The notes under the pieces: generated by a model
The model's input: only the letters and a program-made list of their open reading frames with translations
What the model was told of the DNA's origin: nothing
The model's database searches: none
In this document: positions 6,846-47,465 of the stretch, piece after piece
Layout: every line of letters starts with the position of its first letter
How positions within the stretch are numbered: position 1 is the first letter of the stretch
Position numbers and translations under genes: made by a program
Source of the DNA: an uncultured Bacteroidales bacterium
Lineage (GTDB): Bacteria > Bacteroidota > Bacteroidia > Bacteroidales > Paludibacteraceae
DNA length: 48,531 nucleotides
Direction: 5' to 3'
NCBI GenBank assembly: GCA_903927945.1
Contig: CAIYOZ010000002.1
Location: forward strand, 1 to 48,531

Positions 6846-7316
6846 ATTGCTTGCAACTTTCAGTTATTTTATCAAATAGCCTCCTTCTTGATTCTTACCG
6901 TACGATTTAGAAATTCAGTTACATTTTTTTAGGCAATGAGACCTTCGGCCTTCGGTATACCTTTCTCCGGCCTTTGTTATACCTTTGGCTTTAGACGTTA
7001 CATACATATTACATACTTGTTACATAGATGTTACATATACATCACATACCTATGTAACATCTATGTAACATCTATATAATTAGAATCTATTACATATTTC
7101 ATTTATAAAGCCAAAGGCATAACAAAGGCAGGAGAAAGGCCGGTCAAAGTCCGGAGAAGTAAACAAGTAAATGGAATTAGACAGAAGACCAGACATAAGC
7201 AATGTTGAATAGATATGACTGAACTTGAAATCATACCGAATGCAGGCCTTCATTGACTCAACTTATGAGTACATTTCCACTTTTTTCACGTCTGCTTAAT
7301 AATTCCAATCCGCAGT
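6846..7316. other. 470-base intergenic region with a long palindrome
   Basis: I see no convincing gene here. The middle is occupied by a roughly 180-base nested imperfect palindrome (entered separately). The remaining sequence up to the next ATG has no clear Bacteroides-type promoter. The palindrome probably separates transcription of the fusion gene from the LacZ-like gene downstream. Confidence 0.6.
6960..7139. repeat. Nested imperfect palindrome with TTACATA-type core
   Basis: The outer arms are 34 bases each (6960-6993 and 7106-7139) and pair at 32 of 34 positions; both contain the words CCTTTGTTAT and CCTTTGGCTTTA or their complements. Inside lies a second, perfect 18-base inverted repeat (7020-7037 and 7051-7068, loop 13 bases) built from the words TTACATA and GATGTTACATA. 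The spacer between the two levels carries further copies of TTACATA. It could fold as a long hairpin in RNA or extrude as a cruciform in DNA. Confidence 0.85.
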
Positions 7317-10300
7317 ATGAAGAAGTATATTTCAATTCTTGTCTTGAATATAATGGTTATGTTGACCATCAACGCCCAACAAGCGGACTGGGAAAACAAT
7401 CATATCCTGAGTATCAACCGCGAGCCTGCCAGGGATGCCTTTATTCCTTATGGGAAAGCTTTGGGAGATCGTACCCTGAGCCTGAACGGAACCTGGAAGT
7501 TCCGCTGGACACCCACCCCAGAAGGTAAGATAAACGATTTCTTTACCACCTCATTCATAGATACGGATTGGAAGTCACTTGCGGTCCCTGCTAACTGGGA
7601 ATTGAACGGATACGGCACCCCCATTTATGTATCATCCGGGTATTCATTTAAAATAGACCCACCCAGGGTAATGGGAACACCCAAGGAAAGTTTCACAGCC
7701 TTTAAGGAACGAAATCCAACCGGACAATACAGACGAACTTTCATACTACCCACCGGTTGGAAATCGGAGGGACAAACCTTTCTGCGTTTTGACGGAGTGA
7801 TCAGTGCCTTTTACGTCTGGGTAAATGGCGTAAAAGTAGGCTATAGCCAGGGAAGCATGGAACCTTCGGAATTTAATGTAACATCTTATTTACAGGTTAG
7901 GGAAAATCAGATAGCTGTTGAAGTGTACAAATACTGCGATGGTTCATACATAGAGGATCAGGACATGTGGCGATTTGCCGGGATACACCGCAATGTCTCC
8001 TTGTTTCATACGCCGAATGTCAGGATCACCGATCTCACGGTACGTACCATTCTGGATAAAGAGTATCGCAATGCCTCCCTTGAAATTGACCCCAAACTTT
8101 CGGTTTACGGAAAGGAAAACGGAAAAGGATATATCGTCCGGGCAAAGATCGAAAATTTGATCAATATCACGGCTGATGCAGCTTCCATCCTGAATCTGGA
8201 TCATAAGGCAGCTTTGATGAACGAATGGAATCCGCAACGTGGACCCCGAAAGACAGGCCGTTTAAAGGCGTTGATTGCAAATCCTGCCAAATGGACGGCT
8301 GAAACACCGAACTTATATACCCTGTTGATTACGCTGGAAGACAGCACCGGCAAAGTGGTCGAACGGGTACGACAGCCCATTGGTTTCCGATCGATAGAAA
8401 TATCCGGCAGGCAGATGCTTATCAATGGGAAGCCTATCAAACTACGCGGTGTCAACCGTCATGAGCATGACCCCGTACTTGGGAAAGTAATGACCGAAAA
8501 ACGCATGCTTCAGGATATCCTGCTCATGAAACGGGCGAATATCAATGCCGTCAGGACCTGTCACTATCCGAATGTTTCACGGTGGTACGAGCTGTGCGAC
8601 TCCATTGGAATGTATGTATTGGATGAAACGGACCTGGAAGAACATGGTTTACGGGGCGGGCTGGCTGCGGACCCTGATTGGTGTGCAGCCTTTATGGATC
8701 GCGTCATTCGGTTGGGCGAGCGCGATAAGAATCATCCTTCAGTGGTTATCTGGAGCCTGGGCAATGAAGCCGGATATGGCCCTAACTTTGCCGCCATGTC
8801 AGGGTGGTTGCACGATTTTGATCCCACCCGTCCGGTTCATTACGAAGGGGCACAGGGAATCAATGGCAATCCCGATCCCTCGACAGTCGATATGATCAGC
8901 CGGTTCTATCCCCGTGTACAAGACGACTATCTCAATCCCGGCACCACGGGAGGCAATGACGCCGAACGCCCCGAGAATGCACGGTGGGAACGACTCATAA
9001 ACATAGCCCCCAACGATACCCGGCCTGTATTGACCAGCGAATATGCCCATGCCATGGGAAATGCCATCGGAAACCTGCAGGAATACTGGGATGAAATTTA
9101 CAGCCATCACCAGTTGCTGGGAGGATTTATCTGGGAATGGGCCGATGAAGGTATCTTCAAGATTCTTCCAAATGGTAAAACCGAAGTGGCCTATGGTGGG
9201 GACTTTGGAGACTTTCCGAATCTCAAAACATTTTGTATCAAAGGGATCGTCACCAGCGACAGGGAAACAACGCCCAAATACTGGGATGTCAAGAAGGTTT
9301 ATCAGCCTGTGGCTATCAGTCTTAAAAATGACAGATTGCTGATTATCAACAGGAATCAACACACATCACTTTCACAATACCGTTGTGCCTGGTCGTGTAC
9401 AGTCGATGGAAAAGAAATCAAAAAAGGTGAAATGGTCTTACCTGATACTCCCGCCGGAGACAGCGTGACGGTATCTTCACCTATGCTTGTCGACAAACTA
9501 CCCAAAGGGGATGTTCGGTTGAAGATATTCTTTCAGCTCAAACAAGATTGTGTATGGGCAACCGCAGGATATGAGGTCGCCTATGAACAATTCTGCCTGC
9601 AGGAAGGAGCTTTTCCTCCGGCAGCAGTTTCTAACAAGGGAGCCATCTCCATCCATGAAAGCAACAATGAATTGCATGCAACAGGTAACCGGTTTTCAGC
9701 AAGTTGGAATGCAAAAGACGGTAGCCTTACATCATTAGTGTATGATGGTCGCGAAACATTGGCTCATCCTGCCGACTTTTCGACACAACCCATGATACAG
9801 GCATTCCGGGCACCCGTGGATAATGACCGGAGTTTTGGAAACTGGCTGGCAAAGGACTGGATCGCCAATAATCTGAATGCACCGGTTGTCAGCACCGATT
9901 CAATGACTCATAGTTTTCGAAAAGATGGGGCATTAAGGGTTGTCGTGTCTAAAACAAATCAGTATAAAAATGGAAAAATAAAGGCTAAACTTATTTATAC
10001 AGTCACTTCCAACGGAACAGTGGATTTAGAATGTCATTTTATTCCCGTTGGTGATTTGCCCGAATTACCAAGGTTGGGCATCGCCCTGGCGATAAATCCG
10101 GATGATACCAATTTTAGATGGTATGGCCGTGGACCGCAAGAAAATTACCCCGACCGCAAAGATGCTGCCATGGTAGGGATTTGGAAAGGGAAAGTAAGCG
10201 AACAGGCCGAGCGGTATCCACGTCCGCAAGAGACAGGAAACAAAGAGGAAATACGCACCCTGAGCCTGACAAACAACCAAGGGGCGGGATTAAAAGTAGA

Positions 10301-10526
10301 GGCAGTTGATAAAACCATCTCGGGGTCAGCCCTTAATTTTACAGCCAACGACTTAAATTCGACGGATCATGATTGCAACCTGATACCCCGGAAAGAAATC
10401 ATACTCAGCCTTGATTGTGCCATCCTGGGTCTTGGGAACAGCAGTTGCGGACCCGGCGTGTTGAAGAAATATGCCATTGAAAAGAATGAGCATGTGTTGC
10501 ATATCCGGTTGAACAGTGCAAAATGA
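7317..10526 (+). CDS. Secreted GH2 beta-galactosidase, LacZ type
   Basis: At 1069 residues this has the full length of a LacZ-like GH2 enzyme. A signal peptide (MKKYISILVLNIMVMLTINAQ) is followed by the sugar-binding domain (WKSLAVPANWELNGYGTPIY), an Ig-like domain, the barrel with acid/base Glu484 (SLGNEAGYG) and nucleophile Glu575 (TSEYAHAMGN), the WEWADEG motif, and a C-terminal Bgal_small-type domain (FRAPVDNDR, then WYGRGPQENYPDR). The reaction is probably exo-hydrolysis of a terminal beta-D-galactoside in the periplasm. The GH2 family also covers glucuronidases, galacturonidases and arabinopyranosidases, but the LacZ-type C-terminal domain favours galactose. The ATG at 7317 is chosen because it gives the signal peptide. 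A weak hairpin separates it from the aldolase gene 85 bases downstream. Confidence 0.88.
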   Translation: MKKYISILVLNIMVMLTINAQQADWENNHILSINREPARDAFIPYGKALGDRTLSLNGTWKFRWTPTPEGKINDFFTTSFIDTDWKSLAVPANWELNGYGTPIYVSSGYSFKIDPPRVMGTPKESFTAFKERNPTGQYRRTFILPTGWKSEGQTFLRFDGVISAFYVWVNGVKVGYSQGSMEPSEFNVTSYLQVRENQIAVEVYKYCDGSYIEDQDMWRFAGIHRNVSLFHTPNVRITDLTVRTILDKEYRNASLEIDPKLSVYGKENGKGYIVRAKIENLINITADAASILNLDHKAALMNEWNPQRGPRKTGRLKALIANPAKWTAETPNLYTLLITLEDSTGKVVERVRQPIGFRSIEISGRQMLINGKPIKLRGVNRHEHDPVLGKVMTEKRMLQDILLMKRANINAVRTCHYPNVSRWYELCDSIGMYVLDETDLEEHGLRGGLAADPDWCAAFMDRVIRLGERDKNHPSVVIWSLGNEAGYGPNFAAMSGWLHDFDPTRPVHYEGAQGINGNPDPSTVDMISRFYPRVQDDYLNPGTTGGNDAERPENARWERLINIAPNDTRPVLTSEYAHAMGNAIGNLQEYWDEIYSHHQLLGGFIWEWADEGIFKILPNGKTEVAYGGDFGDFPNLKTFCIKGIVTSDRETTPKYWDVKKVYQPVAISLKNDRLLIINRNQHTSLSQYRCAWSCTVDGKEIKKGEMVLPDTPAGDSVTVSSPMLVDKLPKGDVRLKIFFQLKQDCVWATAGYEVAYEQFCLQEGAFPPAAVSNKGAISIHESNNELHATGNRFSASWNAKDGSLTSLVYDGRETLAHPADFSTQPMIQAFRAPVDNDRSFGNWLAKDWIANNLNAPVVSTDSMTHSFRKDGALRVVVSKTNQYKNGKIKAKLIYTVTSNGTVDLECHFIPVGDLPELPRLGIALAINPDDTNFRWYGRGPQENYPDRKDAAMVGIWKGKVSEQAERYPRPQETGNKEEIRTLSLTNNQGAGLKVEAVDKTISGSALNFTANDLNSTDHDCNLIPRKEIILSLDCAILGLGNSSCGPGVLKKYAIEKNEHVLHIRLNSAK

Positions 10527-10568
10527 GTAATTTGAAATTAAACGATTAGAATAGAATATTAATAACAG

Positions 10569-10596
10569 CTAAAGTCTTTTTGAAATGAGACTTTAG
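10569..10596 (+). terminator. Short hairpin between GH2 and aldolase genes
   Basis: A 9-base perfect inverted repeat (ctaaagtct / agactttag) with a 10-base loop lies 42 bases after the GH2 stop codon. There is no clear T-tract after it, so it may be an attenuating or RNA-stabilising hairpin rather than a full terminator. Confidence 0.35.
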
Positions 10597-10611
10597 ATTA
10601 CAGACAAAAAA

Positions 10612-11517
10612 ATGATGAAAACAACCTTGCGTGGAATAGTTCCACCATTAGTTACCCCGCTTTTAGACAATGACACCCTGGATTTAGAGGGATTGGAAAA
10701 ACTGATTGAACATGTGATTGCCGGAGGCGTGAGTGGATTGTTCATTTTAGGAACAACCGGCGAAGCTCAGAGCCTGAGTTATGAACTGCGGGTGGAAATG
10801 ATTAAACAAACCACCCGTTTATTGAAAAACAGACTACCTTTACTGGTAGGTATTTCCGACACTTCGTTGAAGGATAGTATCAGCCTTTCGCAAGTTGCCG
10901 GAGAGATGGGAGCAGATGCATTGGTTTCAGCACCACCTTATTACTATGCAACAGGTCAACCCGAACTGGCAGAGTTTTATGAAAGCCTGATACCTCAGCT
11001 GGAGCTGCCTATCTATCTGTATAACATGCCATCGCATACAAAAGTAGCATTTGCCCCATCGATAATCCGTCGCATTGCAGAAAACGAGAAAGTGATCGGA
11101 TTTAAAGATAGTTCTTCTAATGGTACCTATTTCCAACAGGTTATGTATGAAATGCGCGACCGTAAAGATTTTTCTATCTTTGTAGGCCCTGAAGAAATGA
11201 TGGCTGAAGTAGTGCTCATGGGTGCTGATGGAGGTGTGAACGGAGGAGCCAATATGTTCCCTAAATTATATGTGGACCTGTATAATGCTGCTGCCACCCA
11301 AAACATGGCAGAAGTCAAGAGATTACATGCCATCGTGATGCAAATCAGTGCGACTATTTATAGTGTGGGCAGCTTTGGATCGAGCTATTTGAAAGGAGTA
11401 AAAAGCGGACTCTCGGTGTTAGGCATTTGCAATGATTTCCTGGCTGCACCCTATAATAAATTTGACGCAGCACATAAGGAAAAAATCCGGGTGGCTATTG
11501 AGAACCTTCCATTATAA
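10612..11517 (+). CDS. DHDPS/N-acetylneuraminate lyase-family class I aldolase
   Basis: This 301-residue cytoplasmic protein without signal peptide has the normal length of the DapA/NanA superfamily. It carries the pyruvate-binding motif GTTGE (residues 47-51), Tyr137 in YNMP and the Schiff-base lysine Lys165 in GFKDSS. These show a pyruvate-type class I aldolase or dehydratase. True DapA is unlikely, because the gene sits between a secreted GH2 and a sugar-acid-type MFS transporter in a pectin locus. More likely it cleaves or dehydrates a 2-keto-3-deoxy sugar acid. Candidates are a ketodeoxy-hexonate from uronic acids or, if the locus targets RG-II, Kdo or Dha, its two 2-keto-3-deoxy acidic sugars. 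The substrate is inference only; the family is certain. Confidence 0.85.
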   Translation: MMKTTLRGIVPPLVTPLLDNDTLDLEGLEKLIEHVIAGGVSGLFILGTTGEAQSLSYELRVEMIKQTTRLLKNRLPLLVGISDTSLKDSISLSQVAGEMGADALVSAPPYYYATGQPELAEFYESLIPQLELPIYLYNMPSHTKVAFAPSIIRRIAENEKVIGFKDSSSNGTYFQQVMYEMRDRKDFSIFVGPEEMMAEVVLMGADGGVNGGANMFPKLYVDLYNAAATQNMAEVKRLHAIVMQISATIYSVGSFGSSYLKGVKSGLSVLGICNDFLAAPYNKFDAAHKEKIRVAIENLPL

Positions 11518-11536
11518 AAAACACTTTATAACTTTA

Positions 11537-11598
11537 AACTTTTCCATTTAAACTTTTCCAAAGTTCCAAACTTTGGAAAAGTGGTTAGTGGAAAAGTT
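11537..11598. terminator. Nested palindrome between aldolase and MFS genes
   Basis: An inner perfect 13-base inverted repeat (acttttccaaagt at 11552-11564, complement at 11570-11582, 5-base loop) is enclosed by an outer perfect 10-base pair (aacttttcca at 11537-11546 with 11589-11598). The same word, ACTTTTCCA, forms both levels. It could act as a terminator or processing hairpin in the 100-base gap between two genes that otherwise look co-transcribed. Confidence 0.6.
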
Positions 11599-11617
11599 GT
11601 TTATTAGAAACTAATCC

Positions 11618-12859
11618 ATGAAATCCCATAAACTTTATCCCTGGTTCGTAGTCGGAATGCTGTGGTTTGTCGCCCTGCTCAATTATCTGGACAGACAGAT
11701 GCTTTCGACCATGAAACCATCGATGATGATCGATATTGCCGAACTGGTTTCAGCCACCAATTTTGGTAGGTTAATGGCGGTATTTTTGTGGATCTATGCC
11801 CTCATGAGCCCCATATCGGGAATAATCGCCGACAGGCTGAACCGGAAATGGATGATCGTCGGGAGTTTGTTTGTATGGTCGGGAGTTACCCTGTTAATGG
11901 GTTACGCCAAGACTTTTGATCAGCTGTATGTACTTCGTGCCATTATGGGGGTGAGCGAAGCCTTCTATATTCCGGCAGGCCTATCGTTGATTGCCGATTA
12001 TCATCAGGGGAAAACAAGGTCGTTGGCCATTGGGATTCATACCACGGGGATCTATCTGGGACAGGCACTGGGAGGTTTCGGAGCTACAGTTGCCGATCAT
12101 TTCTCGTGGCAAATGACGTTTCATTCATTTGGGTTGCTTGGAGTAGGATATAGCCTGATCCTGATGTTTTTTCTAAGAGAGAAAAAGAGTTACACCATTG
12201 ATCTAACCAAAAAAACAACGATTGCCAACGAGTTTTCAATGGCATTTAAGGGACTGGGTGTCCTGTTGGGGAATATCGCCTTCTGGGTGATTTTGTTTTA
12301 TTTCTCGGCACCAAGTCTACCCGGTTGGGCCACCAAGAATTGGCTACCCACACTTTTTTCAGACACCTTGCATCTCCCAATGGCACAGGCAGGACCTATG
12401 GCCACCATCACCATGGCTATGGCCTCTTTTGCCGGTGTATTGATCGGCGGGGTGTTATCGGACAAATGGGTGCAACGTAATCTGAAGGGACGAATTTATA
12501 CCGGTGTGATTGGATTAAGCCTGACCATCCCGGCGCTGATTTTACTGGGTTACGGGCATAGTTTCACCACTGTGCTGTTTGGGGCATTATGTTTCGGGTT
12601 AGGATTTGGAATGTTCGATGTAAATAACATGCCCATCCTCTGCCAGTTTGTATCTTCACGTTACCGGGCAACCGGTTACGGATTAATGAATCTGGTGGGG
12701 ATCGCTTCGGGTGCATTTATTACAAACTATTTAGGCAAATCAATTGATGCCGGTAACCTGGGTAAAAACTTCGCCATGTTGGGTATTGTGGTTGTAATAG
12801 CCATTATTTTGCAGTTAACCCTGTTGAAACCAAAGTATATTAATAAAACTGAAGATTAG
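11618..12859 (+). CDS. MFS transporter, anion:cation symporter-like (hexuronate/sugar-acid type)
   Basis: This 413-residue inner-membrane protein has about 12 hydrophobic helices. The first helix has the ALLNYLDRQ signature typical of ExuT/GudP-like acid-sugar symporters, followed by an MFS loop motif (GIIADRLNRKWMI). Its place directly after a keto-acid aldolase and before a phosphatase suggests proton-coupled uptake of an acidic sugar released by the surrounding hydrolases and lyases. Galacturonate, glucuronate or a 2-keto-3-deoxy acid are all plausible. The substrate cannot be read from sequence; the MFS assignment is firm. The ATG at 11618 gives a normal short cytoplasmic N-terminus before helix 1. 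Confidence 0.85.
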   Translation: MKSHKLYPWFVVGMLWFVALLNYLDRQMLSTMKPSMMIDIAELVSATNFGRLMAVFLWIYALMSPISGIIADRLNRKWMIVGSLFVWSGVTLLMGYAKTFDQLYVLRAIMGVSEAFYIPAGLSLIADYHQGKTRSLAIGIHTTGIYLGQALGGFGATVADHFSWQMTFHSFGLLGVGYSLILMFFLREKKSYTIDLTKKTTIANEFSMAFKGLGVLLGNIAFWVILFYFSAPSLPGWATKNWLPTLFSDTLHLPMAQAGPMATITMAMASFAGVLIGGVLSDKWVQRNLKGRIYTGVIGLSLTIPALILLGYGHSFTTVLFGALCFGLGFGMFDVNNMPILCQFVSSRYRATGYGLMNLVGIASGAFITNYLGKSIDAGNLGKNFAMLGIVVVIAIILQLTLLKPKYINKTED

Positions 12860-12923
12860 AAAGGAACAAAAGAACTACTTTTGCATTCATTTGCCTTTTG
12901 GGCCATTAATATCCATTACGAGT

Positions 12924-13736
12924 ATGATACACGAGACAGATGATTTTTACCGCAGCCTGACTGACAAGGTGATTGAACTGAGTAAACAAGTCGCTGCTTA
13001 TATTGAAAAAGAAAGCATCGATTTTTCGTTGGAGGCTGTTGAAACAAAGAGTAAGAACGATTTTGTATCGTATGTTGACCAGGAGGCTGAAAGATTATTA
13101 GTCAGGACGCTTGCCTTGATATTGCCTGAAGCCGGTTTTGTTACTGAGGAAGGTACTGCCCACGATAACGGGGAAGATTATTTATGGATCATTGACCCAT
13201 TGGACGGTACCACCAATTTCATTCATACATCAACTCCCTATGCCATCAGCATTGCCCTGACCTATAAACAGGAGCCTGTTGTGGGTGTCATCCACGAAAT
13301 TACCAGGAAAGAGATCTTTTATGCCTGGAAAGGAAGTAAAGCTTATCTCAACGGATCGGAAATCCATGTTTCCACAACCGATAAACTTCCTGAGGCCCTT
13401 ATTGTGAGCGGGCGCCCCCACCACTACCAGGACCGCTATCCCGAACTGTTAAACTCTGTGGATTACTTCCTGAAAAACACACATGGTTTACGGTTAAGTG
13501 GTTCAGCTGCCAGCGACCTGGCGTATGTAGCCTGCGGACGTTATGACGGCCGTTATGAGTTTAACCTCAAACCCTGGGACATTGCTGCCGGGGTATTAAT
13601 TATCCAACAGGCAGGAGGAAAAGTAAGCGATTTCAACGGGGAGAACAATTACTTCACGAATGGCTCAGTCTTAGCCTCCAACAGTCGAATTTTTGAAGAG
13701 TTTAAGAATGTGATTGGTGAACTGTTTGATGAATAG
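12924..13736 (+). CDS. Inositol monophosphatase family phosphatase
   Basis: The product has 270 residues from the ATG at 12924 (MIHETDD). A longer reading from TTG at 12891 would add 11 residues unlike the family and is not preferred. Metal-binding motifs of the Mg2+-dependent lithium-sensitive phosphatase superfamily are present: TEEGTA, IDPLDGTTNF, and WDIAAGVLIIQQAGG near the C-terminus. Family members dephosphorylate inositol phosphates, 3'-phosphoadenosine 5'-phosphate, fructose bisphosphate or other sugar phosphates. The gene follows the MFS gene by 64 bases on the same strand, so co-expression is likely. A role in the same sugar pathway would be inference; a housekeeping role is equally possible. 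Confidence 0.85.
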   Translation: MIHETDDFYRSLTDKVIELSKQVAAYIEKESIDFSLEAVETKSKNDFVSYVDQEAERLLVRTLALILPEAGFVTEEGTAHDNGEDYLWIIDPLDGTTNFIHTSTPYAISIALTYKQEPVVGVIHEITRKEIFYAWKGSKAYLNGSEIHVSTTDKLPEALIVSGRPHHYQDRYPELLNSVDYFLKNTHGLRLSGSAASDLAYVACGRYDGRYEFNLKPWDIAAGVLIIQQAGGKVSDFNGENNYFTNGSVLASNSRIFEEFKNVIGELFDE

Positions 13737-13999
13737 TTTCTTTTATATGTTAAATTTAACACACCACACTGCAGGCTCCTTGATTAAAAGTCCGATTTCT
13801 ACCCCTGAATATATTTTTTAATTCATCATTTCGATACAACTGTATTAGAATTATCGTAATTTCGTCTTTGTCAATTGTATTCAAACTTTATAAAAGCCTT
13901 GTTACAACTTGATGAATACTGGTTCAGGTGGGTACAATTGTGCTGTTTCTACGTCTTTTCCTCGTATTGTCATGGGTATAACAAATATGTTTTAACATA

Positions 14000-20177: not shown

Positions 20178-20191
20178 AATCTTATAAAACA

Positions 20192-23997: not shown

Positions 23998-24100
23998 ATA
24001 CAATTCGTTATTCAAGTTTTGTCCTTGCTACATTCTTGCCTTCGAAGTGAAAGGGTCTTGTTTGATAAACTAAACAATCTCTTTTAAATACGATAATGAT

Positions 24101-24153
24101 ACCTACATAACACCTATATATTTAAATACGTATTGAATAGGTATTATATAGGT
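24101..24153. repeat. Imperfect AT-rich hairpin of ACCTA-type words
   Basis: The left arm acctacataacaccta (24101-24116) pairs at 14 of 16 positions with taggtattatataggt (24138-24153). Each arm contains two copies of the core word (ACCTA on the left, TAGGT on the right). The layout resembles the palindrome at 6960-7139, although the words differ. Confidence 0.6.
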
Positions 24154-24250
24154 ATTATCTCAAGACAAAGGTAGGTCAAAGGCATGAACAATTATTCAGC
24201 AGGCGAGGAGAAATACTGAGTCAAAATAAATAAAAACAAATTATTTGTGG

Positions 24251-26893: not shown

Positions 26894-27065
26894 TTAGTTG
26901 ATTAGTTAATTAATTAGTATATTAAGTTAATTGGTTGGAAAAGGAGGACTTTGAAGACCTTGGCGACTCAACTAGCCAATTAACTTAATAACTTAATCAA
27001 CAAATCAACAAATCAACGATTAATTATTCAACTAATCAACTAATCAACCAATTAACTTAATATAC
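26891..27065. repeat. Palindromic element of TTGATTAG/CCAATTAAC words, starts in a stop codon
   Basis: Two perfect inverted repeats lie here: 17 bases (26891-26907 with 27030-27046) and 21 bases (26917-26937 with 27045-27065). The left arms start in the TGA of the upstream GH2 gene, and the right arms end about 20 bases before the next ATG. The words TTGATTAG, GTTAATTGG and their complements recur; the same word set forms the element at 45695-45928. Confidence 0.8.
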
Positions 27066-27085
27066 CAATTAACCAACAAACAACA

Positions 27086-35158: not shown

Positions 35159-35337
35159 TCTTCCTTATTCAACTTAAAATACGTGACAATAAATTTATTA
35201 GTAAATGAGGAATAATGTAACCGATTTCAGAACACAAAATATATCATTAAATTCCATCCATCACATATGTGACTATGTATAAGTAAGTGGAAGAGAATAA
35301 TATCCTATTTTAATTTGATAGAGAAAATGTATTTATT

Positions 35338-35471
35338 TCAATTGCCGTCCCATTTATGGGACTGATAAAATGATATAGATCTACATGGCTTTAGCCAAAT
35401 TTAAATTCTATTTGGCTAAAGCCAAACTATTTTTTACATTCAGCCCATCCCATAAATGGGACGGCAATTGA
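35338..35471. repeat. Two-level palindrome: 24-base outer and 14-base inner perfect arms
   Basis: The outer arms 35338-35361 and 35448-35471 are perfect inverted copies, each containing the self-complementary-like word CCCATTTATGGG. The inner arms 35387-35400 (ggctttagccaaat) and 35410-35423 are also perfect, with a 9-base loop, and each includes the palindrome GGCTTTAGCC. REP-type elements with such words occur in Bacteroidota genomes (general recollection). No transposase of the RAYT type is in the window. Confidence 0.88.
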
Positions 35472-35567
35472 TACAAAAACACGACATTATATTGTTCACA
35501 TTACTTAAATATGTGTTTTATATTAATCTTTATATTGTACCATCTTTTCATTAAAATAATTTTTCGA

Positions 35568-38681: not shown

Positions 38682-38715
38682 ACTAAAACTGTCTTATTTA
38701 CCATTTATTCCCAAC

Positions 38716-38848: not shown

Positions 38849-38856
38849 TATTTTTG
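38849..38856 (+). promoter_or_regulatory. Candidate -7 box before the sigma factor gene
   Basis: TATTTTTG fits TAnnTTTG and lies 33 bases before the ATG at 38890. No clear -33 element at the usual spacing was found. Confidence 0.35.
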
Positions 38857-38889
38857 TTGCATTGAATTTAGCAACTAAAAGACAATAGT

Positions 38890-39471: not shown

Positions 39472-39545
39472 ACCGATAAATTCTTGAGTTTGTGAGTACA
39501 TAATGAGTTGAAGTAGCGTCTTTAAATAAAATTAATAGACACTTC

Positions 39546-39800: not shown

Positions 39801-39839
39801 TCACTCCCCTGCCCTTCTTTTTACACCTACCTATAATTT

Positions 39840-40015
39840 AGGTTATTGGGTTATTTGGTTATTAAGTTATTAGGTTATTAAGTATCGATCTGGTATCTGA
39901 CTCACTACTACAAACTTCCGACTTCCTTCTTCTGACTTCCGACTATAAACTACCGACTGCCGCACTTCTTACTACCGACTTCTTACTACCAACTGCCCAC
40001 TATAAACTATAAACT
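39840..40015. repeat. Degenerate short tandem repeats (GGTTATTN, then CTTCCGACT/CTACCGACT)
   Basis: The first block (39840-39881) has about five copies of GGTTATT or GTTATT with one- or two-base spacers. The second (39907-40015) is a pyrimidine-rich run in which CTTCCGACT, CTACCGACT and ACTATAAACT recur with changes. The repeats are too irregular for an exact copy count. Confidence 0.6.
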
Positions 40016-40195
40016 TATTTTGTTAAATGTTTACAGTATCTTTTCTTGTTATTGGGATATACTTATTGTATTTCTGATGATAATTCTTTTAAAGTAAGAT
40101 TGTTTTTAATATACTAAAGCAGTTTGATTTAGCAAATAAATCCCTTGAATGCTTATTGTACAAAACACATTAATAGAATTTATATATTGTATATA

Positions 40196-40218
40196 ATACA
40201 GTATATAAATACCTGTAT
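40196..40218. promoter_or_regulatory. Candidate operator: ATACAG-N11-CTGTAT
   Basis: A perfect 6-base inverted repeat with an 11-base AT spacer lies 50 bases upstream of the -7 box of the regulator gene. Dyad symmetry of this size fits a dimeric Nudix-like regulator binding its own promoter. The AT-rich surroundings mean chance cannot be excluded. Confidence 0.35.
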
Positions 40219-40268
40219 ATGTGTTTTATAACATGGTAATAAAATATTTATTATTCAAAATATACTCT

Positions 40269-40276
40269 TACATTTG
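40269..40276 (+). promoter_or_regulatory. Candidate -7 box (TACATTTG) of the regulator gene
   Basis: This exact match to TAnnTTTG lies 25 bases before the ATG at 40302; the -33 element is not clear. Confidence 0.45.
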
Positions 40277-40301
40277 TCGACTTTAATAACGGAAATAAAT
40301 A

Positions 40302-41012: not shown

Positions 41013-41120
41013 CCCCTAAAGGGGAACAAAAACCCTTTGGATTGGTGGTTATAAAACAAACAATAATAACTTTTATTGAATAATACTAACGTCTCTTATC
41101 CCCCTTTAGGGGCTAGGGGT
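41004..41120. repeat. CCCCTAAAGGGG-type inverted-repeat element, copy A
   Basis: The left end (aacccctaacccctaaagggg from 41004) pairs with the right end (ccctttaggggctaggggt, ending 41120) at 19 of 20 positions. The element fills nearly all of the gap between the regulator and xylB genes, and its left end encodes the last residues and stop codon of the regulator. The spacer carries AAAACAAAC and TAATACTAAC, which recur in copy B. Confidence 0.8.
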
Positions 41121-41133
41121 AATATTTAAGAAT

Positions 41134-42606
41134 ATGTATCTACTAGGTTATGATTTAGGAAGTTCGTCTGTTAAGGCGAGTTTGGTGAATGCCACCACAG
41201 GCGAATGTGTGTCGTCGGCATTCTTTCCAAAAAAGGAAATGGAAATTATTTCGGTAAAAGCAGGCTGGGCGGAACAAAATCCTGAAATATGGTGGAAAAA
41301 CCTAAAACTCGCTACGCAAGTAGTGTTGGAAGAATCGGGAGTAAATGCAATGGACATAAAAGCCATTGGTATTTCCTATCAAATGCACGGTCTGGTGCTT
41401 GTGGACGAAAACCAACAGGCTATCCGTAATTCCATTATCTGGTGCGACTCACGTGCAGTGCCTTATGGTGAAAAAGCTTTTAATGAAATAGGTGGTGAAC
41501 AGTGTTTATCCCATTTATTGAATTCTCCGGGCAATTTCACTTTGTCAAAAATGGCCTGGGTAAAGGAAAATGAACCTGAAAACTTTGCCAAAGCAAAATA
41601 CTATATGTTACCGGGCGATTATCTGGCTATGCGTATGACAGGTGATGCCCGCACAACAGCATCGGGTTTGTCGGAAGGTATTGCATGGGATTTCAAGTCT
41701 GAATCTCCGGCTAAATTCCTGTTCGATTACTTCGGTTTTGACACAGCTTTAATACCTGAAATTGTACCTACATTTGGTCAACAAGGAAATCTGACAGCCG
41801 ATATCGCTGCTGAACTCGGATTAGCTGCCGGAACTCCAGTGACTTACCGTGCAGGAGACCAACCCAACAATGCATTGTCACTAAACGTATTGAATCCGGG
41901 TGAAATTGCGGCTACCGGTGGTACTTCGGGTGTGGTTTATGGCGTAAACAGCGATTCGAAATACGATCCCCAATCTCGTGTAAACTCATTTGCACATGTA
42001 AATCATACTCCAGAGGATACCCGGGTTGGTGTATTGCTTTGTATTAACGGAACAGCAATTCTAAATACCTGGATAAAGAACAACGTGGCTCCTGAAGGTA
42101 TCAGCTATGCAGAAATGAACGAATTGGCTGCAGAAATTCCTGTGGGGAGTGAAGGCGTTAGTATCATTCCTTTTGGCAATGGGGCTGAACGTGTATTGGG
42201 AAACCTGGAACCAAACTGCTCCATTCACGGTGTAAATTTTAACCGTATTACTAAAGCACATTTTATCCGGGCTGCACACGAAGGTATTGCTTTCTCTTTT
42301 AAGTACGGTATGGACATTATGAATCAAATGGGGATTGAAACCAAAACAATTCGGGCAGGGCATGCGAACTTATTCTTGAGTCCTGTTTTCCGTCAGACTC
42401 TGGCTAATATCACCGGAGCCACCATTGAATTGTACAATACTGATGGTTCAGTAGGGGCAGCACGTGGTGCCGGAATAGGTGCCGGGATTTATAAAGATGC
42501 AGAAGAAGCTTTTGCTACATTGAAAAAGATTCAGGTAATTAACCCCGAACCCGAAAATGTGGAAGCTACGAAAGCGGCGTACGATAAATGGATAATGAAA
42601 ATATAA
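41134..42606 (+). CDS. xylB: Xylulokinase
   Basis: This 490-residue cytoplasmic FGGY-family kinase phosphorylates D-xylulose to D-xylulose 5-phosphate with ATP. The N-terminal phosphate-binding motif DLGSSSVKASLV, the ISYQMHGLVLVD segment (the family's QMHG signature), the GDQPNNAL segment and GGTSGVV are all visible. Its length is normal. It sits before xylose isomerase and a sugar symporter, which fixes the substrate well. Start: ATG 41134, directly after the repeat element. Confidence 0.95.
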   Translation: MYLLGYDLGSSSVKASLVNATTGECVSSAFFPKKEMEIISVKAGWAEQNPEIWWKNLKLATQVVLEESGVNAMDIKAIGISYQMHGLVLVDENQQAIRNSIIWCDSRAVPYGEKAFNEIGGEQCLSHLLNSPGNFTLSKMAWVKENEPENFAKAKYYMLPGDYLAMRMTGDARTTASGLSEGIAWDFKSESPAKFLFDYFGFDTALIPEIVPTFGQQGNLTADIAAELGLAAGTPVTYRAGDQPNNALSLNVLNPGEIAATGGTSGVVYGVNSDSKYDPQSRVNSFAHVNHTPEDTRVGVLLCINGTAILNTWIKNNVAPEGISYAEMNELAAEIPVGSEGVSIIPFGNGAERVLGNLEPNCSIHGVNFNRITKAHFIRAAHEGIAFSFKYGMDIMNQMGIETKTIRAGHANLFLSPVFRQTLANITGATIELYNTDGSVGAARGAGIGAGIYKDAEEAFATLKKIQVINPEPENVEATKAAYDKWIMKI

Positions 42607-42607
42607 G

Positions 42608-42775
42608 AACCCCTGAAGGGGAACAATTAAAGTCAGTTTTCATTATTCAATTAGGTTTTAAAGCTTAATTTCAAAGTTAAAACCAAATCCTCTTACTCCC
42701 CTTTAGGGGTTGGGTGTCATTAAAACAAACTATTAATACTAACTTCTCCGGCTCCGCTTTAGGGGCTGGGGGTCA
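42608..42775. repeat. CCCCTAAAGGGG-type element, copy B with two right ends
   Basis: A left end (aacccctgaaggggaac, 42608-42624) begins two bases after the xylB stop. Two right-end copies follow in tandem: ccctttaggggttgggtgtc near 42697-42720 and ctttaggggctgggggtc near 42752-42775. The words AAAACAAAC and TAATACTAAC between them match copy A. It fills the xylB-xylA gap. Confidence 0.75.
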
Positions 42776-42786
42776 TTAAAATTATT

Positions 42787-44103
42787 ATGTCAACAAAACA
42801 GTATTTCCCAGCAGTGGAAAAAATCAAATTCGAAGGAAAAGAAAGTAAAAACCCATTAGCATTCCGTTACTACGATGCTGAGAAAGTGGTTTATGGTAAA
42901 ACCATGAAAGAATGGTTTAAATTCAGCATGGCCTGGTGGCATACCTTGTGTGCTGAAGGTGGCGATCCTTTTGGTGGTGGCACTCAGGTTCACCCATGGG
43001 TAGGAGCTGCCGATGCGTTGCAAGCTGCAAAAGACAAAATGGATGCAGGTTTTGAATTTATGACGAAGATCGGTATTGAATACTATTGTTTCCACGATCT
43101 TGATTTAATCAGCGAAGGTAACAGCATAGCAGAATACGAAGCAAACCTGAAAGCTATCGTGGCTTATGCGAAACAAAAACAGGCTGAAACCGGCATCAAA
43201 CTTATGTGGGGTACTGCGAATGTATTCTCACCAGCACGTTATATGAATGGTGCAAGCACCAATCCTGATTTTGATGCAGCTGCACGTGCCATGCTTCAAA
43301 TAAAGAATGCGATTGATGCTACTATCGATTTGGGTGGCAAAGCATACGTTTTCTGGGGAGGACGCGAAGGGTACATGTCGTTGCTCAACACCAACATGAA
43401 ACGCGAAAAACAACACATGGGTATGATGTTGACTAAAGCGCGTGACTATGCCCGTGCAAAAGGGTTCAAAGGAGTTTTCCTGATCGAACCGAAACCAATG
43501 GAACCTATGAAACACCAATATGATGTGGATACTGAAACAGTCATCGGATTCCTGAAAGAATTTGGGTTGGAAAACGATTTCAAAATCAACATTGAAGTAA
43601 ACCACGCTACATTGGCCGGTCACACTTTCGAACACGAATTACAATGTGCTGTTGATAATGGCATGTTGGGAGCTATTGATGCTAATCGTGGTGATGTTCA
43701 AAATGGCTGGGATACCGACCAATTCCCGATTGATACTTTTGAATTGACTCAGGCTATGTTAGTGATTCTTCAGGGTGATGGCATGCAAGGTGGTGGTACC
43801 AACTTCGATGCAAAAATCCGTCGTAACTCAACCGATAATAATGATTTATTCATTGCTCATGTTGCCGCCATGGATGTTATGGCACGTTCTTTAGAAGCTG
43901 CTGCAGCGATACTGGAAGAATCTCCTTATAAGAAAATGGTTTCCGACCGTTACGCCTCTTACAACGCAGGGAAAGGGAAAGAATTCGAAGAAGGTAAACT
44001 ATCTTTCGAAGACGTTTATGAGTATGCGAAATCAAATGGAGAACCAGCGCAAATCAGCGGTAAACAAGAGCTTTACGAAGCGATTGTAAATATGTACATT
44101 TAA
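42787..44103 (+). CDS. xylA: D-xylose isomerase
   Basis: This 438-residue metal-dependent isomerase converts D-xylose to D-xylulose. The class II length and motifs are present: catalytic His103 and Asp106 in CFHDLDL, the WGGREGY motif (190-196), and metal/substrate ligands Glu234 and Lys236 in [10 protein letters not shown] followed by KHQYD. Nearby [13 protein letters not shown] completes the site. It acts in the cytoplasm upstream of xylulokinase in the pentose phosphate route. Confidence 0.97.
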
Positions 44104-44109
44104 AAACAG

Positions 44110-44192
44110 AAGTAAGAGGTAAGGAGTGAGAGGCAAGTACTTTGTATTCTTACTGCTTACTTCCTTACCTCTTACCTCTTACCTCTTACCTC
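44110..44192. repeat. Hairpin ending in four TTACCTC tandem copies
   Basis: Four perfect 7-base copies of TTACCTC lie at 44165-44192. The complementary strand word (GTAAGAGGTAAGG at 44111-44124) starts 7 bases after the xylA stop codon and pairs with the first copies at 13 of 14 positions, giving a hairpin with a long loop. It fills most of the 102-base gap before the transporter gene. Confidence 0.75.
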
Positions 44193-44205
44193 TTAATTAA
44201 AACAC

Positions 44206-45603
44206 ATGAACCCAGAAAAAGGAAGTAAATTTTATATTTTCGGAATAACATTGGTGGCCACGTTGGGTGGTTTGCTTTTCGGATACGACACAGCCGTTAT
44301 CTCGGGTGCGGTCGATTCATTAAAAACTGTATTCCACCTGAATGAAGCTACTTTTGGTAGCATGGCAACAACCTATCATGGTGCCACGGTGGCAAGCGCA
44401 CTTATCGGTTGTATTATCGGCAGTGCAGTTTCAGGACTTTTTGCCGAGAAATTAGGACGTAAAAACTCATTGCTTCTGGCAGCTATTCTGTTTTTCCTGT
44501 CGGCATGCGGTGCAGCATATCCTGAATTTTTCTTCTTTCACAAAGGGGACGGTTCTGTACCGGTGCTGATTGCATTCAACATTTACCGTGTGATAGGAGG
44601 AATCGGTGTAGGACTTGCTTCGGCCATTTGCCCTATGTATATTGCTGAAATTGCACCGGCTGAAATTCGCGGGAAACTTGTTTCCTGGAATCAGTTTGCT
44701 ATTATTTTTGGTATGCTGATTGTTTATTTCGTAAACTATTTCATTACGAAAGGTCAACCACAACAATGGATTGATAGCGAAGGATGGCGCTATATGTTTG
44801 CGTCCAATGCGGTACCTGCCGCAGTTTTTGGTATATTATTGTTTTTTGTCCCCGAAACTCCCCGTCATCTGGCGTTGATTGGTCTCGAAGACAAAGCACT
44901 GCACATTCTTGGTAAAATCAACGGATCGAACAAAGCCAAAGAAATCCTACAGGATATTAAAGATTCTGCCCACGAAAAGGTGGAAAAAGTACTGGCTTAT
45001 GGTTGGAAAGTGCTGGTAATAGGCATCCTGCTTTCTGTGTTTCAACAGGCGGTGGGTATCAACGTCGTGCTGTATTATGCTCCAACCATATTCAAAGGAC
45101 TTGGTTTTGGAAACGATGCTGCCATGTACCAGACGGTCATCATGGGCTTTATCAACATTATCTTTACATTAGTAGCTATCTTTACAGTCGATAAATTCGG
45201 ACGTAAACCGCTTTTAATTATCGGTTCTATAGGAATGGCCATCGGAATGTTCGCCATTGGATTGTTGGCTCATCTGCAAATTATTGGTGTAAGCACGTTG
45301 GTTTTCATTGTCATCTATTCGGCTTCGTTTATGATGTCGTGGGGACCGATTTGTTGGGTATTGATCTCTGAAATTTTCCCGAATACCATTCGTGGCAAAG
45401 CAATTGCAATCGCTGTAGCAGCCCAATGGATTTCCAACTTTATTGTTTCGGCTTCATTCCCGGCTCTGCAAGCGGTGAGCATGACTTTCACCTACTGGTT
45501 GTACGGAGTCATGAGTATTTTATCAGCCATCTTTGTTTGGAAAATGGTTCCTGAGACAAAAGGAAAAACGTTGGAAAACATAACTAAATTGTGGAGAAAA
45601 TAA
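44206..45603 (+). CDS. xylE: D-xylose:H+ symporter (MFS sugar porter)
   Basis: This 465-residue inner-membrane protein has 12 predicted helices. Sugar-porter signatures are visible: FGYDTAVISG in helix 1, AEKLGRKNSL after helix 2, VPETPRHLAL in the middle, QQAVGINVVLYYAPTIF in helix 7 and VPETKGKTLE at the end. Homologues such as E. coli XylE import D-xylose with protons. The xylB-xylA context supports xylose; arabinose or glucose use cannot be excluded. Confidence 0.92.
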   Translation: MNPEKGSKFYIFGITLVATLGGLLFGYDTAVISGAVDSLKTVFHLNEATFGSMATTYHGATVASALIGCIIGSAVSGLFAEKLGRKNSLLLAAILFFLSACGAAYPEFFFFHKGDGSVPVLIAFNIYRVIGGIGVGLASAICPMYIAEIAPAEIRGKLVSWNQFAIIFGMLIVYFVNYFITKGQPQQWIDSEGWRYMFASNAVPAAVFGILLFFVPETPRHLALIGLEDKALHILGKINGSNKAKEILQDIKDSAHEKVEKVLAYGWKVLVIGILLSVFQQAVGINVVLYYAPTIFKGLGFGNDAAMYQTVIMGFINIIFTLVAIFTVDKFGRKPLLIIGSIGMAIGMFAIGLLAHLQIIGVSTLVFIVIYSASFMMSWGPICWVLISEIFPNTIRGKAIAIAVAAQWISNFIVSASFPALQAVSMTFTYWLYGVMSILSAIFVWKMVPETKGKTLENITKLWRK

Positions 45604-45764
45604 GTAAGTACGCGAAATAAAGAAATGTCCTGTTTATAAATTGAAAATCAGGATCAGAATAGAACGTGGATTCAGGTGGATTCAGCAGATAAATAGTTGA
45701 TTGGTTGATTAAGTTGATTAAGTCCCAAAAAAGGTATGGAATAGCAGTAAATTTCAAACTTCCA

Positions 45765-45795
45765 CTCTTTACACCCCTTTAATGGGCTTGGAGTT
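45765..45795. repeat. Degenerate right end of the CCCCTAAAGGGG element
   Basis: The words ctctttacacccctttaatg and gggcttggagttc resemble the right end at 42697-42720 with several changes. No matching left end is seen, so it is probably a decayed half-copy. Confidence 0.45.
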
Positions 45796-45826
45796 CTTTG
45801 TTTCTTCATCCGGCTTTTTTAATTAC

Positions 45827-45861
45827 AAAGCGTGTAGTGGTACCTGACCATTACACGCTTT
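45827..45861. terminator. Bidirectional terminator-like hairpin
   Basis: A 14-base stem (aaagcgtgtagtgg at 45827-45840 with ccattacacgcttt at 45848-45861, one G-T pair) surrounds a 7-base loop. A-rich and T-rich flanks lie on either side. The position between convergent genes fits a terminator serving both. Confidence 0.75.
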
Positions 45862-45926
45862 CATAGTACCAATTAACTAATTAACTCTATCAACTTAATC
45901 AACCAATTAACCAATCAACCAATCAA

Positions 45927-47465
45927 CTAATCACCCATCAACGCCATCACATCATTCTTCAATGCTTTTGTATCCTCATCAATCATGTTATCCTTTATTT
46001 GATCAATGAATGGAGTAAGTTGTTTTTTGGTTGAAGGATCTATGCGAAGTTCCTCACGTGCATAATTCAAAAATGCCGTCCTGTTTAGATTGGGCGAATC
46101 CTTGAATTCCAGTGATTTTTTTATGGCACTCAAATATAATTCACGACCTGAATCATATAGACCCTTTCTGAAATCAACCAAACCCCTTGTCGCCAGTAAA
46201 CAAACATCAATTTCGCCCTCATTTACAATATTAGACTTAATTTGGGCCAGATAACCCTCGGCTTTCTCAATCTCATTGTTCATAGCACAGGCATAGGCTA
46301 TGTTATTGATTAATTCGGGATCCATGGGATTTGCCTGAAGGCCTATATTCAATATCTTTTCCGATAACTCATATTCTTTTAAATGAGTGGTTGAAATGCT
46401 TGAGGCAAATAATACCGGGCGTTTAGCGAATGGCATGTCTTCAATCCAATCGCTGGCAAAACGAATGGAATCAACGAATTCTTTTCTATTAAAACTAGAT
46501 AAGGCGCACGATTCATAAAACCGATTCATAGGAAGTGTATGAATATTTAGTAGATCAACATCCTGAAGCAATGATTTGGAGGCAGCCCACTCCGCCTGTG
46601 CCAGGCTGTTGTCATTCGGATCGATCAACGAGGTGTGAAATAGTTTCTTTGATTTTTTAGTGGAACCATTGAAATATTCTATTGTTCCTATCGAACTGGC
46701 TAGCTCCGAAATACTAGCTGAAGAATAGTTGCCGGATTCAAGCAGGGTTAACCCTCTTTTTATATTATTTGAATTCCGGTCTAACATGGATGAAATTGAT
46801 ATCTCGGAAGCCATCAACCAGGGATCATTTTTTATCAGTTCATTTTTCTTCAACACATGCAGTGCTTGTTCCTTGTCCTGTAGATGAAGATGCAACCGGG
46901 CGGCCGACCTGATAATAAACCGGTTGTTCTTACCCAGGTACAAGGCTTTATGAATGGCTAGAACGGATTGATCCACCTGACCGATACTGATATAACACCT
47001 TGACAATTCTACATATAAAATCGGATTGTAGGGATAATCAATTATTTTATGTTTTAGTGTGGCTATTTTTTTATGAATAGCATCGATGGAGATACAATCA
47101 AACAGGTTATCATCATTTATCTCGTCCATCTTTTGTTCCACTTTTTCCTTTACAGAATTCAGGATGGCCGAAGCCAATGCTTTCTGCGAATTTGTGCAAT
47201 CCTCTTTATGGGCAAGGATGAACGTTGCAGCCTCTTTTACTTCCTGACAGTTCATCTGTCCGTTCGATACCGCTGCACTCAACAAATCGGCTGCAAACGG
47301 CACAGACCTGTTCATATTCCAGTCACCTATATAGTCGTTGATGGAGACTAAATCAACTCTTTTCTCAGGTTGGGAGCTGTTCAATTCTCCCAGACGTGCC
47401 GTTTTAGAAAAGCTTTTCCAATTTGGAATAACACGCCTGTCCGCGTTTGTAAATATTATGGCCAT
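45927..47465 (-). CDS. TPR-like helical repeat protein coupled to a protein kinase
   Basis: This 512-residue protein has no signal peptide and no clear membrane helix. From about residue 130 on it is made of helical pairs with TPR-like spacing (NPILYVELSRCYISIGQ, AIHKALYLGKN, NPMDPELINNIAYACAMN, AEGYLAQIKS). I do not recognise the first 120 residues. It starts 4 bases after the stop codon of the kinase gene, so the two are almost certainly made from one transcript and translationally coupled. A scaffold or substrate for the kinase is plausible; the function is unknown. Its stop codon lies in a palindromic element. Confidence 0.7.
   Translation of the reverse strand: MAIIFTNADRRVIPNWKSFSKTARLGELNSSQPEKRVDLVSINDYIGDWNMNRSVPFAADLLSAAVSNGQMNCQEVKEAATFILAHKEDCTNSQKALASAILNSVKEKVEQKMDEINDDNLFDCISIDAIHKKIATLKHKIIDYPYNPILYVELSRCYISIGQVDQSVLAIHKALYLGKNNRFIIRSAARLHLHLQDKEQALHVLKKNELIKNDPWLMASEISISSMLDRNSNNIKRGLTLLESGNYSSASISELASSIGTIEYFNGSTKKSKKLFHTSLIDPNDNSLAQAEWAASKSLLQDVDLLNIHTLPMNRFYESCALSSFNRKEFVDSIRFASDWIEDMPFAKRPVLFASSISTTHLKEYELSEKILNIGLQANPMDPELINNIAYACAMNNEIEKAEGYLAQIKSNIVNEGEIDVCLLATRGLVDFRKGLYDSGRELYLSAIKKSLEFKDSPNLNRTAFLNYAREELRIDPSTKKQLTPFIDQIKDNMIDEDTKALKNDVMALMGD

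Follow-up and report, generated by a model that had tools for sequence, protein, structure and literature searches.

Three intergenic hairpins of the window, i.e., of the whole 48,531-nucleotide stretch of DNA analysed here (gaps 26894, 44108, and 45695), are probably gene-less copies of an S23 element of the intervening sequence (IVS) type. Built of words of 7 or 8 bases, they resemble reduced versions of a widespread selfish element with a small gene for a four-helix protein; elsewhere, this element is known chiefly from within ribosomal RNA genes. The full element consists of a degenerate array of 7- to 9-mers, in most cases rich in G or in purines when read on the coding strand, a small S23 (four-helix-bundle) gene (PF05635, TIGR02436), and a reverse-complement array. 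The copies in the window lack an S23 gene and are filed only as gene-less relatives. The window contains the following intergenic features.

6943–7156, no strand: inverted 11-mer arrays (TTACATA words) within outer inverted arms, a separate class
11537–11598, no strand: small ordinary hairpin below threshold (T = 14, I = 15), with a perfect 14-bp inverted repeat
24096–24158, no strand: inverted 11-mer words, a separate class (T = 18 at period 11, I = 18)
26894–27085, plus strand: 8-mer word element of the TTGATTGG class that lacks an S23 gene, with a left array reaching to about 26937 and a right array at about 26970–27084
35325–35485, no strand: conventional inverted-repeat (MITE-like) element without word array (T = 14 and I = 21 for the gap)
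39838–40009, no strand: one-sided arrays; 8-mers at 39838–39879, 7-mers at about 39907–40009
44108–44198, plus strand: 7-mer word element that lacks an S23 gene, with a left array at about 44108–44138, a loop, and a right array at about 44149–44198
45695–45926, no strand: 8-mer word element of the TTGATTGG class that lacks an S23 gene and is flanked by convergent genes

Gaps were scored for the best tandem match at periods of 5 to 13 (T) and for the best inverted match (I), each in a 21-base window, and compared with 60 dinucleotide shuffles per gap; in the window, gaps of at least 60 bp were counted. Values of T ≥ 17 together with I ≥ 18 are reached by 5 of 17 gaps in the window, by 6 of 103 gaps on 40 unbiased contigs of the genome to which it belongs (G000), and by 2 of 184 gaps in genome G002, and by no shuffle in any of these three gap sets (mean 0.00, maximum 0 in each). 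The original prediction had seen one plan in seven gaps and is partly confirmed; the five gaps that pass, those with 6960, 24101, 26891, 44110, and 45695, bear it out, whereas the gaps at 35338 and 11537 fail. The seven are not of one kind either, but comprise two word classes, one conventional repeat, and one ordinary hairpin, and instead of words of 7–10 bases we find units of 7, 8, and 11, which form no single range. For two of the 13 passing gaps (L145 and L188), reading of the arms by eye indicates that the highest-scoring inverted repeat does not pair with the array but forms a terminator-like hairpin next to it. The same thresholds are reached in 0 of 64 gaps of G028, a genome with no S23 match, and in 4 of 100 gaps of G041, S23-free genomes being too small a sample here to reveal a dependence on S23 genes. 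An Rfam scan of the window gave no family at gathering score.

The 44108–44198 gap (T = 21 at period 7, I = 18) has a predicted fold of −37 kcal/mol (z −5.8), and its element has at least 52 matches in G000, from 40 scored of 75 candidates. The 26894–27085 gap (T = 19 at period 8, I = 21; z of the predicted fold −8.2) holds an element with at least 74 matches in the same genome, from 40 scored of 248 candidates. For the 45695–45926 gap (T = 19 at period 8, I = 20), z of the predicted fold is −9.3, and a terminator-like hairpin (45827–45861) lies within the core of the element. By eye, the window elements have the same arms as S23-bearing copies in G000: those of the 44108 element stand on either side of an S23 gene at L206, and TTGATTGG words adjoin S23 genes at L200 and L201. 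None of the nine PF05635 matches in G000 lies on the contig of the window (C2), and the 44110 element has no match in the plasmid collection. The search for S23 remnants in the window gaps and in the hairpins of the transporter gap produced few matches (L113, L130, and L131), no better than those of shuffles, and for this reason the origin of these elements by gene loss is something that we infer.

Across the genus, most S23 genes stand between complementary arms. The set comprised 77 loci, i.e., eight of the nine G000 matches (L207, under the cut-off, was omitted), 29 loci, and 40 further rows, the latter neither all nor random and, except for L294, chosen before their flanks were seen; three loci were lost for short flanks, leaving 74, and the removal of one S23-like ORF reduced the controls from 127 to 126. 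Flanks complementary at J ≥ 18 were found for 53 of 74 S23 genes, versus 1 of 126 control ORFs and 0 of 370 shuffled flanks, and J is below 17 at 13 of the 74. A tandem array is present on at least one side at 55 of 74 S23 genes, versus 4 of 126 controls. One copy, L266 in a relative, has lost most of its S23 gene and kept both arms, with a gene remnant still recognisable (E = 4e-23). Beyond the genus, J ≥ 17 is reached at 14 of 30 S23 loci of other Bacteroidota (16 are below) versus 2 of 300 with shuffled flanks, and at 11 of 16 plasmid S23 loci (5 are below), taken from 30 matching records, versus 4 of 160 shuffled flanks. The array-S23-array design recurs in cyanobacteria, where S23 genes on plasmids sit among heptamer-type arrays, in Gemmatimonadota, and in an intervening sequence of Azospirillum, whose S23 copy lies inside 23S rRNA and has heptamer arms.

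The word family is linked to the S23 lineage across sites. Word similarity tracks S23 identity (r = 0.49, a value that none of 1000 permutations reached), and the S23 tree requires 14 changes for 14 site groups, compared with a mean of 39 after shuffling. These results bear on the possibility that the arrays are a pure product of replication, in which slippage and template switching act alone, with no protein partner, and S23 genes are present by chance. Such a process would fit the variation of words inside arrays, the matching of arms in most elements, and the existence of arrays that are one-sided or have no S23 gene. It is strained by the frequency of arrays at S23 genes relative to control genes and by word families that are common to several sites in step with the S23 protein, and we regard it as quite improbable.

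The words change while the arms remain matched. For the gap before window position 44206, 25 orthologous gaps were read, including that of the window, and all 22 of at least 45 bp contain an inverted repeat (I15 ≥ 12; 3.4 of 22 in shuffles), 18 of them with I15 ≥ 13 (0.45 in shuffles). Several word families occur at this one orthologous gap, with period 7 in 17 of 22, which upholds the proposals of a common plan with changing words and of something other than one transposon family of fixed sequence. The check that the original prediction had asked for, differing word sets at one gap among relatives, thus comes out in its favour. At shared operon sites as well, words differ between species and the own arms of an element usually fit each other best. 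When arms were swapped at the same site, own arms beat the mean of the swapped ones at 30 of 37 loci (p = 5e-6; one of 38 loci had too short a gap to be counted) and in 22 of 22 cases at the transporter gap; they were not better at 7 of the 37 (site (2,2), 4/7; site (8,7), 1/3).

An S23 element of this kind might move in one piece, with an S23 protein that recognises the words of its own element as a transposase recognises its ends. Words would change by slippage, and the arms would be kept complementary by copying from arm to arm, through template switching in a hairpin or quasi-palindrome; template switching, already named in the original prediction, is plausible in this role. With slippage and arm-to-arm copying, therefore, no fixed end sequence would be needed. 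The gene-less hairpins might be non-autonomous or relic copies. Copies might persist directly behind stop codons and directly ahead of start codons because a transcript could form a stem at these places without much harm, as happens in rRNA, where the stem is cut by RNase III.

Alternatively, the host might select the stems: operon gaps would need a stable hairpin for message stability, processing, or stoichiometry and would recruit any convenient repeat, with S23 genes as passengers able to tolerate these positions. Word elements do lie between codirectional genes, the folds of the window elements are predicted to be stable, and at the sdhA-sdhB-like gap (29 of 30 gaps read; L257 is at a contig edge) 7 of 29 relatives have an unrelated CCCC..GGGG hairpin instead. 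However, 14 of the 29 manage with a gap of only 1–26 bp, G.U versus A.C mismatches (32 versus 21, p = 0.17; 13 versus 10, p = 0.68) do not clearly point to selection at the RNA level, and the match between words and S23 lineage across sites would be left unaccounted for, which makes host selection an unlikely explanation. Among 80 named loci, a single S23 gene was found (L055, J = 18), and the neighbours of its gap resemble those of the sdhA-sdhB-like site.

Two further agents can be weighed through the genes that they would require. An Avd-like S23 protein acting with a reverse transcriptase might write the words from an RNA template, and PF05635 resembles Avd (PMC10053308), the related four-helix protein of diversity-generating retroelements. 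Avd models match two of the four S23 proteins tested, at scores under the Avd cut-off, and neither of the two S23 proteins whose words the window uses; yet the search of G000, which is 97.7% complete, revealed no match to RVT_1, the reverse transcriptase that a diversity-generating retroelement has, and retro-type copying is therefore very unlikely. The original prediction had named, as one example, a RAYT-like enzyme of loose specificity, which would be a Y1 transposase. G000 does encode six Y1_Tnp genes (at each locus, the most central ORF was treated as the Y1 gene), and three of the six loci have complementary flanks (J of 17, 19, and 21), but a tandem array (T ≥ 17) is found in either flank at none of them. 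The link of repeats to a Y1 transposase gene that characterises REP/RAYT systems is thus not seen, and such an agent is hardly credible. The word elements resemble MITEs and REP-RAYT systems in being intergenic hairpins with gene-less copies alongside gene-bearing relatives; unlike them, they end in a drifting tandem word and not in a fixed sequence.

The S23 element reading has parallels in the 23S rRNA IVS of the Coxiella type, in which an S23 ORF lies inside inverted repeats, tandem heptamers (GACAGAT) precede the S23 start codon in numbers that vary between strains, and some copies carry a deletion in the S23 gene (PMC4990558). The Azospirillum copy joins S23, 23S rRNA, and heptamer arms. 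In contrast to the IVS, the window elements lie between protein genes, have no S23 gene, and differ in their words from gap to gap; a location in 23S rRNA is found only for L250. RNase III cutting is a known feature of the rRNA forms, whereas the stems of the window are predicted. Cyanobacterial STRR are usually 7-bp repeats that fold into hairpins between genes, e.g., hupS-hupL (PMC2670836), and heptamers also occur in the P6b region of the trnL intron of cyanobacteria (PMC3488679). The window elements share this design of tandem repeats of about 7 bp in intergenic, here predicted, hairpins (period 7 at 44108, period 8 at 26894 and 45695), although the name STRR belongs to cyanobacteria and the window to another phylum; the available text of both descriptions makes no mention of S23 genes. 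Two Xanthomonas genomes contain 70 and 75 inverted pairs of GGGAATC heptamer arrays, the longest of which lie beside different genes in the two genomes (PMC4692102). In the available text these pairs are discussed as G-quadruplex repeats, without a link to S23; Xanthomonas campestris has an S23 protein of known structure (2gsc). TAACTGA direct repeats form intergenic heptamer arrays in Beggiatoaceae, cyanobacteria, and some Bacteroidetes, with two sets in Paludibacter propionicigenes, and are mostly one-sided, with one inverted set in the main genome (PMC4679880).

Intergenic heptamer arrays have thus been described in several bacteria without agreement on their origin, and rRNA intervening sequences have so far had no known mover. 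S23 genes in such arrays, together with gene-less word hairpins, join the two puzzles and provide a candidate protein; among open-licence papers, we found no title or abstract that ties S23 genes to intergenic word arrays. Tentatively, and with somewhat more doubt than conviction, we propose that S23 elements are phylum-crossing mobile DNA whose ends are a drifting tandem word read by their own Avd-like protein, that 23S rRNA IVS arose where such elements inserted into rRNA, and that many of the heptamer arrays between genes (STRR of cyanobacteria, GGGAATC of Xanthomonas, and TAACTGA) are gene-less copies. If S23 proteins do recognise the words of their own elements, such mobile DNA would alter its recognition sequence and its protein in step and yet keep one plan.

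The S23 element does not explain the 11-mer gaps 6943–7156 (T = 19 at period 11, I = 20) and 24096–24158. The MITE-like element at 35325–35485 has 34-nt arms, 91% complementary, and copies of about 93–94% identity on contigs C104 (two), C409, C220, and C17 (40 scored of 41 candidates); like a MITE, it has terminal inverted repeats and is present in several nearly identical copies. The gap 39801–40301 with its one-sided arrays (T = 18 at period 8, I = 16) was absent from the gaps listed in the original prediction.

Gaps were scored by their best tandem match (T) and best inverted match (I) of 21 bases, with 60 dinucleotide shuffles of each gap as control. T ≥ 17 together with I ≥ 18 is attained by five of the 17 window gaps, by 6 of 103 gaps from an unbiased sample of the window's own genome (G000; 4.47 Mb in 450 contigs) and by 2 of 184 gaps of a relative assembled as one contig (G002; 3,685,504 bases). 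G000 is a Paludibacter-like Bacteroidales assembly, a window transporter having its best relatives among uncultured Bacteroidales and Paludibacter sp. The original prediction had asked for a comparison with shuffled sequence, and no shuffle in any of the three gap sets attains these values; in 2 of the 13 passing gaps, the top inverted match comes from a terminator-like hairpin distinct from the array. What had been observed, namely short words in near-copies on one side of a gap and their reverse complements on the other, is something real, and for five of the seven gaps named the common plan stands, while the gaps at 35338 and 11537 lack it. The seven gaps are nevertheless of several kinds:

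Features of the window
26894: word element, unit of the 7-8-mer class
44108-44198: word element, unit of the 7-8-mer class
45695: word element, unit of the 7-8-mer class
6943-7156: 11-mer arrays, class of its own
24096-24158: 11-mer arrays, class of its own
35325-35485: conventional repeat, copies of about 93-94%
11537: ordinary gap lacking the plan

Each of the three word elements folds better than all 200 of its own shuffles (z of -5.8 at 44108, -8.2 at 26894, and -9.3 at 45695). Array flanks in G000 lead to a small PF05635 gene (23S rRNA intervening-sequence protein, S23; TIGR02436 "four helix bundle protein"), a family with nine matches in G000, eight of them above cut-off, and none in 14 control genomes. 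At locus L206, the S23 gene is flanked by AGAAGTAAGAGGTAAGGAG and CTTACTCCTTACCTCTTACCTCTTA, the arms of the element at 44108-44198, and occupies the position of the short loop there; further S23 genes adjoin TTGATT, AAAGTC, and AAGAACC arrays. Judged by their arms, the three window gaps are very probably gene-less forms of word elements of the S23 or intervening sequence (IVS) type.

The S23 gene is present in 45 of the 48 genomes of the genus and in 90 of 118 Bacteroidota genomes. Let J be the best complementary match, out of 21 bases, of the 250-base stretches that precede and follow a gene. In the genus, J ≥ 18 is reached by 53 of 74 S23 genes, whereas similarly sized control ORFs reach it in 1 of 126 cases and shuffled flanks in 0 of 370 (J ≥ 17: 61, 3, and 7, respectively). 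One flank or both carry a tandem array at 55 of the 74 S23 genes versus 4 of the 126 control ORFs. Among 30 Bacteroidota loci, the best-scoring one per genome, 14 reach J ≥ 17 and 9 reach J ≥ 18 (shuffled flanks, 2 and 1 of 300; swaps between loci, 15 and 5 of 870). For 16 plasmid loci, mostly cyanobacterial, the counts are 11 and 9 (4 and 0 of 160 with shuffled flanks; 11 and 6 of 240 with swapped ones); (AGTAGGG)n and (CCCTACT)n, for example, are the arms enclosing the S23 gene on a Nostoc edaphicum plasmid (L237). This element separates two ribonucleotide reductase genes and is on the strand opposite to both; on three other cyanobacterial plasmids (L240, L245, and L247), S23 is situated between CRISPR genes, twice cas6/cas4 and once cas10/cmr3. 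An Azospirillum copy inside a 23S rRNA gene (RF02541, 1109 bits) possesses heptamer arms too, and in Coxiella, according to PMC4990558, tandem GACAGAT heptamers varying in copy number among strains precede the S23 start codon; rRNA IVSs and intergenic elements thus have one design in common. Parts of this design are displayed by IVS elements (PMC4990558), STRR hairpins (PMC2670836, PMC3488679), Xanthomonas GGGAATC pairs (PMC4692102), and TAACTGA repeats (PMC4679880); the consulted passages of these papers link no intergenic arrays to S23 genes.

Arm positions are measurable in 50 of 77 S23 loci, where the best left-arm window begins a median of 9.5 bases past the upstream stop codon and the best right-arm window ends a median of 20 bases ahead of the next start. 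The left arm holds more G than C in 39 of these loci, equal numbers in 4 and fewer in 7. The arrays next to S23 genes have a period of 7 in 49 cases, 8 in 20, 9 in 17, 12 in 3, and 6 in 2.

Fourteen operon sites harbor at least two S23 loci, the same sites recurring in different species; their neighbors are presumably sdhA/sdhB, etfA/acyl-CoA dehydrogenase, and methylmalonyl-CoA mutase subunits. Mapping the 14 site groups onto the S23 tree takes 14 changes, where 13 is the minimum and shuffling averages 39; four groups (s03, s04, s05, and s12) are not single clades, and the nearest relative is a same-site S23 in 43 of 52 cases, which indicates that the gene is inherited in place at most sites. 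Within one and the same site, the words differ between species. At 30 of 37 loci, an element's arms fit each other better than swapped arms do on average (Wilcoxon p = 5e-6), least clearly at sites (2,2) (4/7) and (8,7) (1/3). Across sites (68 loci, 2163 pairs differing in both neighbors), mean word similarity is 0.43 at S23 identities of at least 60% (107 pairs) versus 0.14 below, with r = 0.49, matched by 0 of 1000 permutations that ignore species kinship. On these sequence comparisons, S23 protein and word family travel together.

Differing word sets at the same gap in relatives, another check proposed originally, are indeed encountered upstream of the transporter at 44206, where 25 orthologous gaps, the window's own included, display GTAAG, AAAGAGC/AAGAACC, GTCAAAG, GAGTAAAC, and CCAATGTG types among others. 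An inverted repeat with a score (I15) of at least 12 exists in all 22 gaps of at least 45 bp (shuffles, 3.4 of 22) and of at least 13 in 18 (shuffles, 0.45); the best period is 7 in 17 of the 22, and in all 22 the left half finds a better partner in its own right half than, on average, in those of the other gaps. Judged by eye, L132 and L133 carry other hairpins in this gap.

Among 29 sdhA-sdhB-like gaps, 7 hold the full element (521-549 bp), 7, including that of G000, an unrelated CCCC..GGGG hairpin (115-152 bp), 14 only 1-26 bp, and one (L266, 224 bp) both arms with just the 3' end of S23, 85% identical over 79 bases to that of a relative's gene (E = 4e-23). Gene loss with retention of the arms therefore does occur; the window elements and transporter-gap hairpins show no S23 remnant above chance, so that for them such loss is an inferred origin. 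At the same site, filled L253 reads TAA/TTAGTTAC..CTTGTAA/CTAAAAAGATATG and empty L255 TAA/CTAAAAAGATATG, one close pair that suggests a possible 3-base repeat (TAA) at both insert ends, at most a candidate target duplication. The target TAACT is similar to the element's own word.

Anatomy, recurrence, linkage, arm matching, and a single deletion are established directly. Beyond these, the S23 protein might recognize the words, the element may move as a unit, and the arms could be maintained through arm-to-arm copying plus slippage; mismatch types do not discriminate RNA-level selection from DNA-level copying. A RAYT-like enzyme (Y1_Tnp), originally offered as one possible generator, is disfavored by the lack of tandem arrays at all six Y1_Tnp loci, although three of them reach J ≥ 17, and a retro-type mover by the absence of any RVT_1 profile match from G000. 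At locus L363 (contig C268 of G000), CAACCCTGCGGGTTG palindromes flank a Y1_Tnp gene left and right, an arrangement that is REP/RAYT-like and devoid of word arrays. Similarity of PF05635 to Avd is noted in PMC10053308; among four S23 proteins tested, two match Avd models weakly (below cut-off or in PHROGs) and those of L206 and L201 do not match. The sole PDB relative of S23 found by sequence is 2gsc, and the Xanthomonas S23 structure is described in PMC4990558 as a homopentamer of four-helix bundles. The S23-element account as a whole, mechanism included, seems fairly probable to us.

The 11-mer class, with two gaps in the window, is left unexplained by this account: no S23 gene was seen between 11-mer arrays, and no partner gene was found. 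Period-11 arrays also occur at L163 4391, L166 4579, L177 2270, L013 982, L022 5471, and L207 1777, in long gaps and in several cases with outer inverted arms. A single window gap contains, at 39838-40009, one-sided arrays of 8-mers (TTAGGTTATT) and of 7-mers (ACTTCCG). Hairpins of the type CCCCTAAAGGGG..CCCCTTTAGGGG lie at 41013-41133 and 42607-42786 of the window, and similar-looking ones occupy the transporter gap of L132 as well as the sdhA-sdhB-like gap in six relatives and in G000 itself (L273). In L010, at 3015-3542, word families of three types (GCGTTCC, GAAGAGTTT, and TTCATTGG) are nested, as if elements had inserted into one another.
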